Shown here one piece after another: positions 41,716 through 42,894 of a DNA stretch of 64,000 bases. The translations under genes were made by a program, and so were the position numbers. Each line of letters starts with the position of its first letter. The stretch's first letter is position 1. The notes below the pieces were generated by a model. That model had not been told where the DNA came from. It searched no databases and saw nothing but the letters and a program-made list of their open reading frames with translations. Source of the stretch: Acidovorax sp. NCPPB 4044 (lineage in GTDB: Bacteria > Pseudomonadota > Gammaproteobacteria > Burkholderiales > Burkholderiaceae_C). The stretch is from the NCBI RefSeq assembly GCF_028069655.1, contig NZ_JAMCOS010000001.1, positions 2,200,001-2,264,000 of the forward strand. The letters run 5' to 3'.

Positions 41716-42894
41716 ATGTCCCGTACCCTGATCCTGGCCGAACAGCTCATCTCCCGCCCCTCCGTCACGCCCGATGACGCCGGCTGCCTCGACCTGTTGG
41801 CCGAACGCCTGGCACCGCTGGGCTTCGTGTGCGAGCGGATCGATAGCGGCCCGGACACCTTCCGCGTGAGCAACTTGTGGGCAAAACGGCCTCATGCCGC
41901 CGGATCCATTGAAAAGTCTGCTACAAAAACAATAGTATTTGCCGGGCACACCGACGTGGTGCCCACGGGCCCCCTGGAGCAGTGGAGCAGCCATCCCTTC
42001 ACGCCCTCCCACCGCGACGGCAAGCTCTACGGCCGGGGCGCGAGCGACATGAAGACATCCATCGCGGCCTTCGTGGTCGCCGTGGAGGAATTCCTGGCCG
42101 CCACGCCCGAGCCGTCCATCGCGGTGGCCTTCCTGCTCACGAGCGACGAGGAAGGCCCTTCGGTGGACGGCACGAAGGTGGTGGTGGAGCACCTGTCCGC
42201 ACGCGGCGAAACGCTCGACTGGTGCATCGTCGGCGAACCGACCTCGGTGCAGAAGACCGGCGACATGATCAAGAATGGCCGGCGCGGCACGCTGTCGGGC
42301 AAGCTCACCGTGCGCGGCATCCAGGGGCACATCGCCTACCCCCAACTGGCGCGCAACCCCATCCACCAGGCCCTTCCCGCCCTGGCCGAACTGGCGGCGA
42401 CCGCCTGGGACCAGGGCAACGACTACTTCCCGCCCACGAGCTGGCAGATCAGCAACATCCACGGCGGCACCGGCGCGAGCAACGTGATTCCCGGCACCGT
42501 GGTGATCGACTTCAACTTCCGTTTCTCGACCGAGTCCACGGCCGAAGGCCTGAAGACCCGCGTCCACAACCTGCTCGACCGCCACGGACTCGAATACAGC
42601 GTGTCCTGGACGCTCGGCGGGCAGCCGTTTCTCACGGCGCCGGGCGAGCTGGTGAACGCGGTGCGGCAGGCCATCGCCGACGAGACGGGCATCGAGACCG
42701 AGCTCTCCACGACCGGCGGCACGAGCGACGGGCGCTTCATTGCGCAGGTGTGCCGGCAGGTCATCGAACTCGGCCCCCCCAACGCCACCATCCACAAGAT
42801 CGACGAACACGTCGTGGTGGTCGACGTCGAGCCGCTCAAGAACATCTACCGCCGCACCCTCGAGCGGCTGAACGCACAGGCGGCCGCGGAATGA
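41716..42894 (+). CDS. dapE: Succinyl-diaminopimelate desuccinylase DapE with repeat-derived insertion
   Basis: A 392-residue M20 metallohydrolase that releases succinate from N-succinyl-LL-diaminopimelate. Metal ligands appear in [10 protein letters not shown] (His78), GRGASDMKT, the Glu pair in [12 protein letters not shown], and the later Glu in VGEPTS. Residues about 60-71 ([12 protein letters not shown]) come from an inverted copy of the dispersed repeat at 41886-41940 and interrupt the normally short link between NLWAKRP and VFAGH. The insertion keeps the frame and all catalytic residues, so the enzyme may still work. The start is uncertain: ATG 41716 ([11 protein letters not shown]) or ATG 41701, neither with a good ribosome-binding site. 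Confidence 0.92.
41886..41940 (+). repeat. Dispersed hairpin-tail repeat, copy D (inside dapE)
   Basis: Inverted relative to copies A-C. Plus-strand text reads gcctcatgccgccggatc, cattgaaaagtctgctac, then aaaaacaatagta. Its complement matches the tail aatggatccggcggcatg and a decayed hairpin (actattg / tagcag). It lies wholly inside the dapE frame, about 15 codons with no stop. Confidence 0.7.

Follow-up and report, generated by a model that had tools for sequence, protein, structure and literature searches.

The dapE gene and its embedded repeat

The window, by which we mean the whole stretch of 64,000 nucleotides analysed from the genome of Acidovorax sp. NCPPB 4044 (G000), carries the dapE gene, for which an alternative ATG exists at 41701, and prmB (Table 1). 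The encoded DapE is 97% identical to that of Paracidovorax konjaci. A copy of a dispersed repeat lies within dapE, is read in frame without a stop and scores 53.6 bits against HMMs trained on copies located outside dapE. The preliminary description had reported such a stop-free, in-frame copy and is borne out in this respect, with a family of at least 150 copies behind the match. It had let the element begin at 41886; the repeat reaches further left, to about 41874, an edge that was set from the information content along the remaining copies. A search for repeats paired the segment 41883-41940 with places at 13120, 25786 and 53106. This stretch of dapE serves both the enzyme and the repeat family.

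Table 1. Positions of the genes and repeat features in the window
Feature	Position	Strand	Basis
dapE, succinyl-diaminopimelate desuccinylase	41716..42894	+	NCBIfam TIGR01246 506 bits, NF009557 560 bits
Full-length REP-like repeat copy (~66 nt) in dapE, residues L54 to F75	41874..41940	+	HMM and CM matches
32-nt genome-specific (dialect) core of the dapE copy	41888..41919	+	PWM tests
Codon AAG (K67) of the dapE copy	41914..41916	+	Stop codon here in 32/47 non-coding copies of G000
3' palindrome of the dapE copy (GCTA...TAGT), A69 to first base pairs of V74	41920..41936	+	
prmB, next gene after dapE, without repeat here	42891..43829	+	TIGR03533 316 bits
Repeat copy outside dapE	about 13120..13181	-	CM and nhmmer
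Repeat copy outside dapE	about 18823..18884	-	CM and nhmmer
Repeat copy outside dapE	about 25769..25830	-	CM and nhmmer
Repeat copy outside dapE	about 53089..53150	-	CM and nhmmer

The repeat family in the genome

An nhmmer search returned five full copies of the repeat in the 64-kb window, with the dapE copy at 6.8e-16, a value obtained with a profile that has this copy among its five seeds. Its matches span 13121-13180, 18825-18883, 25770-25829, 41881-41939 (dapE) and 53094-53149. When the five were combined into a covariance model, this yielded at least 150 copies in G000, all with E ≤ 8.6e-11, at least 150 in the nearest species, P. konjaci (G005), and 144 in G001. The pattern GCTAT-N5-9-ATAGC occurs 203 times in G000, compared with 9 occurrences of a control palindrome of equal composition, and inverted GCTAT/ATAGC arms are enriched there (35 versus 2 after shuffling). 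The information profile of the copies gives a length of about 66 nucleotides, arranged as a T-rich left block, the motif TCAAATcGGCC, a 28-nt genome-specific stretch and the palindrome. As DNA, the five window copies fold no better than their shuffles, and the window has no match in Rfam at the gathering threshold. On inspection, the consensus sequences from seven genomes bear neither GTAG nor GTGG at the base of the palindrome. A strand bias by replichore was considered and dropped, the best split of the 81 chromosome copies among the matches listed (55 of 81) being equalled in 21 of 200 shuffles.

Two other places in the window deserve mention. At 46017-46040, a lone GCTAT...ATAGC resembles the 3' part of the repeat, with a 5' part that does not score (E 0.017). 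The region 58979-62499 contains numerous direct repeats that have diverged from one another (families D4, D11-D13 and D17), a pattern that we take to resemble Rhs/YD-repeat genes.

A dapE site shared across the Comamonadaceae

We collected 97 dapE loci of the family, of which 95 could be parsed (all except L100 and L109) and 88 remained after seven duplicates had been dropped. HMMs built from repeats outside dapE in eight genomes identify the repeat in dapE at 47 of the 88 loci, and the copies listed as positive share the same orientation and frame. The scores fall into two groups, the lowest positive at 10.3 and the highest negative at 2.3 bits; the threshold of 8 bits was chosen after the scores had been seen. 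Relatives lacking the dapE repeat thus exist, as had been anticipated.

Whole-genome palindrome counts are available for 65 of the 88 loci; a 66th count belongs to a locus that could not be parsed. When genomes with 35 or more palindromes are called repeat-rich, a line that was set afterwards, the repeat is present in dapE of 34 of the 35 repeat-rich genomes versus 2 of the 30 repeat-poor ones, the exceptions being G055 (rich, without a dapE copy) and G029 and G030 (poor, with one). Seven independent contrasts could be drawn on supported branches of a DapE tree that was built without the loop; on average 6.6 of them agree with this association and 0.0 oppose it, one doing so in a few pairings, with a median p of 0.016 and a range extending to 0.125. 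The repeat state changes 14 times on this tree, gain being indistinguishable from loss.

In P. konjaci the same dapE copy is found with 3 differences across the 90 bases compared. Since the copy of the nearest species is nearly identical and the site is filled throughout the family, the dapE copy of the window is therefore inherited, and it no longer stands as the direct evidence for movement of the element that it was first taken to be; what differs between lineages is the wording. Judged by comparison of the sequences, the site is one that is common to the family and old, and not a fresh insertion.

Two of the records, L042 and L044, are labelled Rhodanobacter (MAG) and Pantoea sp. 18069, and their dapE genes group among Acidovorax relatives. 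Either the labels are wrong or the contigs are foreign, probably.

Loop length, predicted structure and codon wording

Measured from N53 to the D of GHTD, the DapE loop comprises 28 residues in 36 of the 47 positives and 32-43 in the others; in the repeat-lacking loci it has 21-28 residues in 39 of 41 cases and 32 in two. The loop of the window's DapE is 8 residues longer than that of Neisseria DapE, the repeat itself spanning about 22 codons, 3-7 residues longer than in 29 of the 41 repeat-lacking loci, and exactly as long as in G014, a repeat-poor genome of the same genus with 11 hairpins. These values fall short of the roughly 12 added residues that were originally proposed. A loop of equal length and unrelated sequence, the case that would have spoken against an insertion, does occur in G014, a close relative, and is not the rule among all relatives. 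Likewise, the proposal that the repeat creates protein sequence survives in reduced form: residues are contributed (about 8 in DapE), fewer than the length of the repeat, and none is detectable in PrmB.

The ends of the repeat encode the conserved strands LWAK and TIVF in rare, AT-rich codons. The conserved Leu is written TTA or TTG in 38 of 47 positives versus 2 of 41 negatives, the Lys position AAA in 41 of 47 versus 6 of 41; an ATA codon is present in 29 of 47 versus 0 of 41, and a GTA codon in 25 of 47 versus 2 of 41. In this genome, TTA makes up 0.2% of Leu codons and ATA 2% of Ile codons. The fraction of A or T at third positions reaches 0.62 in the loop of repeat-bearing dapE genes (0.15 in the rest of the gene) and 0.65 in that of the window (0.08 in the rest), compared with 0.19 (rest 0.17) where the repeat is lacking. 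As conserved positions take the wording of the repeat, its ends double as codons of conserved strands, and the length added is less than the whole repeat. Repeat-poor genomes show ordinary GC-rich wording at the sites, and the segment is either kept (dapF) or somewhat shorter (most dapE).

A structure prediction from 28 sequences (mean pLDDT 82) places strands at residues 51-58 and 72-80 on either side of a loop at 59-71, in which residues 63-67 fall below a pLDDT of 50. The core of the repeat is thus predicted to encode a flexible hairpin loop that precedes the metal-binding strand, in keeping with the original placement of the copy next to the metal-binding segment. Native sequence is retained beside the repeat on the left in L072 and L086 and on the right in L084 and L107. 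We infer from the small net gain an old insertion that was later trimmed until the repeat ends replaced native codons; the other loop registers, of 32-43 residues, could reflect more than one insertion.

Genome-specific dialects

The consensus of the repeat core differs strongly between genomes. When the 32-nt dapE core was compared with PWMs of the other copies, the genome's own matrix fitted best in 7 of 8 cases, the dapE core of G025 preferring the dialect of G023, and only 2 of the 40,320 possible assignments were equally good; the underlying profiles had been started from dapE copies in six genomes and from the five window copies in two. In a control for which the repeats were located solely through the palindrome, G020 offering only 4 sites, the own genome was best in 6 of 8 cases and 5 of 40,320 assignments were as good. 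G000 and G010 are members of one genus; their dapE cores share 9 of 32 bases with each other, compared with 28/32 and 23/32, respectively, shared with the consensus of their own genomes. Orthologous dapE copies of different species can, by this measure, be no more alike than chance.

The same was seen in a test on four genes, with the 33 coding copies removed from training: the dialect of the own genome, or of its own clade, fitted best in 23 of 26 comparisons (dapE 7/8, dapF 8/8, pgeF 4/5, prmB 4/5), which are non-independent where sister genomes are involved and leave uncounted three dapF copies without a PWM of their own. The misses are dapE of G025, pgeF of G009 and prmB of G023, each of which fits another genome better. 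The G010/G011 clade (L156, L157 and L208-L217) seems to hold two dialects: dapE, dapF and pgeF carry the first, and the second, which is nearer to that of the window, stands beside the RAYT gene.

Constraint by translation

Among the non-coding copies of G000, 32 of 47 have a stop at the codon that is read AAG in dapE and GAG in dapF; in G001, whose dapE and dapF also read AAG and GAG, this holds for 7 of 21. The dialect of G000 thus often places TAG in the reading frame, and the dapE and dapF copies differ from it exactly there. Only 9 of the 47 non-coding G000 copies are open in the dapE frame, versus 33% of shuffled ones, and in seven other genomes the open fraction is 29-72%; we rejected the idea that the repeat is generally kept open for translation. 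Because most non-coding copies of G000 would bring a stop into the dapE frame, blind copying of another repeat over the site would often be lethal. The open frame, the conserved strand residues and the changed stop base show a dapE copy that, as far as its sequence can tell, is under coding constraint.

Copies in other genes

Of 245 non-dapE copies, taken from sampled stretches of eight genomes (those of G000 picked to hold matches), 33 lie in an open frame with a coding signal on both sides and 212 do not. This call is a heuristic made without gene annotation, by which some weak coding cases may be false, and two of the three coding copies in G000 are the same place. In the sequence sampled, the repeat is mostly located outside clear coding frames.

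Repeat-derived segments in other proteins, the existence of which had been suspected, were found in DapF, PrmB and PgeF. In dapF, the repeat occupies a single site, which is filled in all 23 rich genomes and in none of the 20 poor ones; the comparison covered 45 loci, counts being available for 43, and 2 of 30 genomes that were searched gave no match. The corresponding DapF segment measures 42 residues in 22 of the 23 loci with the repeat and in 14 of the 20 without it, and the solved DapF chains that were compared are 10-11 residues shorter there. In G000, this copy lies in frame at L170:1316-1385 (G000:C1 about 141316). For prmB, 70 of 88 loci could be parsed and 29 carry the repeat in the N-terminal part; among the 54 loci with counts, it is present in 21 rich genomes and 1 poor one and absent from 9 rich genomes, including that of the window, and 23 poor ones. 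The lengths of PrmB with and without the repeat overlap. Of 17 genus loci of pgeF, 8 were parsed; five have the repeat and three, from rich genomes, lack it. DapF hence behaves like DapE, and PrmB and PgeF do so in part.

Another in-frame copy in G000 lies in cca (tRNA nucleotidyltransferase; L187:14417-14479), with the repeat on the strand opposite the gene. Candidate coding copies in other genomes are located at L197:6750-6819, L196:16045-16114, L219:16809-16867 and L257:11527-11591; we presume the proteins to be those of tilS, aceE, metG and truB, respectively.

A candidate mover

A single Y1 transposase match was obtained in every one of the 17 genus genomes, and one or two were found in all 20 named relatives. 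The model for REP-associated tyrosine transposases (NF047646), scored in two genomes, was passed narrowly by both G000 (82.5) and the repeat-poor G002 (81.6; cut-off 80). The repeat adjoins the RAYT-type gene at 10 of the 17 loci of the genus and at 3 of the 10 from other genera; no repeat stands beside it at the six repeat-poor genus loci, in the repeat-rich G008 or at the remaining 7 loci outside the genus. The copy neighbouring the RAYT gene in G010 and G011 is not of the main dialect. The RAYT is a candidate for the mover of the repeat. Its presence was rejected as the cause of repeat richness, as the gene also exists in repeat-poor genomes; in G003, G002, G004, G007, G014 and G006 (L141, L144-L147 and L149) it is open and has no repeat beside it.

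Discussion

That the DapE segment is an ordinary variable loop, AT-rich by accident, has a negligible chance of being correct: the loop is indeed predicted to be flexible, but its score against models of non-dapE copies, the clear gap between positives and negatives and the dialect match of the dapE copy all speak against it. Very improbable, too, is the view that a mobile repeat recently entered dapE in this species and added 12 residues. The copy matches the repeat well and some relatives are without it, yet 47 of 88 loci have the site occupied, the nearest species is nearly identical and the gain is closer to 8 residues. A hot spot, at which each lineage received a fresh insertion by target preference and with it the current dialect, would account for the differing registers, seen to the left in L072 and L086 and to the right in L084 and L107, and for the 14 changes on the tree. 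We consider it unlikely, given that the positives listed share orientation and frame, that the loop has 28 residues in 36 of 47 of them, and that the dapF segment is 42 residues long with (22/23) and without (14/20) the repeat, which points to one old site.

There is a somewhat better, though still minor, chance that selection acts on the DNA itself, the repeat being a recognition motif of a trans-acting protein (RAYT, or a nucleoid, uptake or repair factor) to which all copies, the coding ones among them, are matched base by base and whose specificity shifts by lineage, in the manner of the dialects of DNA uptake sequences. The close tracking of genome-wide repeat richness by dapE and dapF, the presence of the motif in prmB without a change in length, and the repeat-like wording of synonymous positions in conserved residues would all follow from it. 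However, the match covers most of the 32-nt core and not a short motif, the binding protein is hypothetical here, and repeat-poor genomes live without the motif. Both this selection and copy-over were considered as the means by which the sites keep in step, and we lean towards copy-over. Our preferred reading, which we hold to be evenly poised between right and wrong, is that of an old coding REP-like site, long established in the DapE β-hairpin and kept in step with the other copies under translational constraint. A REP-like repeat of the Comamonadaceae would long have been seated in the hairpin that precedes the metal-binding strand of DapE and would have been matched to the other repeats as their sequence was copied over it, either through ectopic gene conversion or through annealing of single strands of the repeat that the RAYT could release, with the outcomes filtered by selection on the enzyme. 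A tract copied over in this way was not seen directly, which counts against the reading. A wider formulation, which falls short of that degree of confidence and is offered tentatively, is that native coding sequence has taken on the wording of repeats of about 66 nucleotides while gaining hardly any length or none, and that near-obligatory in-frame sites in the essential genes dapE and dapF are reworded in each lineage to the dialect of the genome by a genome-wide process (copy-over, perhaps driven by a RAYT, or selection on the motif) that edits codons and some residues of housekeeping enzymes in concert.

The repeat resembles the REP/REPIN and RAYT systems in being short and palindromic, present in hundreds of copies, mostly extragenic in our sample, and accompanied by one RAYT-type gene in each genus genome. 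According to passages of PMC6006769, the foot of REP hairpins carries a GTAG or GTGG tetranucleotide. The palindrome here has no such conserved tag, and we therefore call the repeat REP-like and not a proven REP/RAYT system. In-frame REPs in protein loops and intragenic REPs of other bacteria are on record in parts of PMC3733652, PMC6006769 and PMC3116915; in contrast to REP/REPIN, the coding sites described here are family-wide, follow the dialect and add little or no net length to their host proteins. The Rickettsia palindromic elements (RPEs), described in sections of PMC2229807 as sequences of 105-146 bp in frame in conserved proteins, are similar as dispersed palindromic repeats that enter unrelated conserved proteins (here DapE, DapF, PrmB and PgeF). 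Set against that account of RPEs, the present repeat is shorter (about 66 nt), belongs to free-living Betaproteobacteria and has ends that double as codons of native strands. DNA uptake sequences, for which portions of PMC3630211 describe dialects in the Neisseriaceae, likewise form a genome-wide motif with lineage dialects, a likeness that concerns the motif alone; the repeat here is much longer and contains a palindrome. The palindromic repeats of PMC2755013, considered as a counterpart, were set aside as CRISPR, to judge from the portion of that paper concerned. The main text of PMC3733652 contains no mention of Acidovorax, Delftia or Comamona-, and among openly licensed PubMed Central papers no literature on the repeat in Comamonadaceae was found. 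REPs and RPEs that lie in frame are already known; what is new is that coding sites are conserved and follow a dialect.

REPs and RPEs in coding sequence have, for the most part, been regarded as accidents that the host protein tolerates. Here, the coding sites are family-wide, present almost exactly in the repeat-rich genomes, and follow the dialect of each, which makes it possible to test from sequence whether repeats are renewed by copy-over, through fresh insertions or by selection of a function of the DNA. In these bacteria, the repeat determines rare codons as well as residues of essential enzymes, and odd loops or rare codons in Comamonadaceae proteins may accordingly be the wording of a repeat and not an adaptation of the protein.
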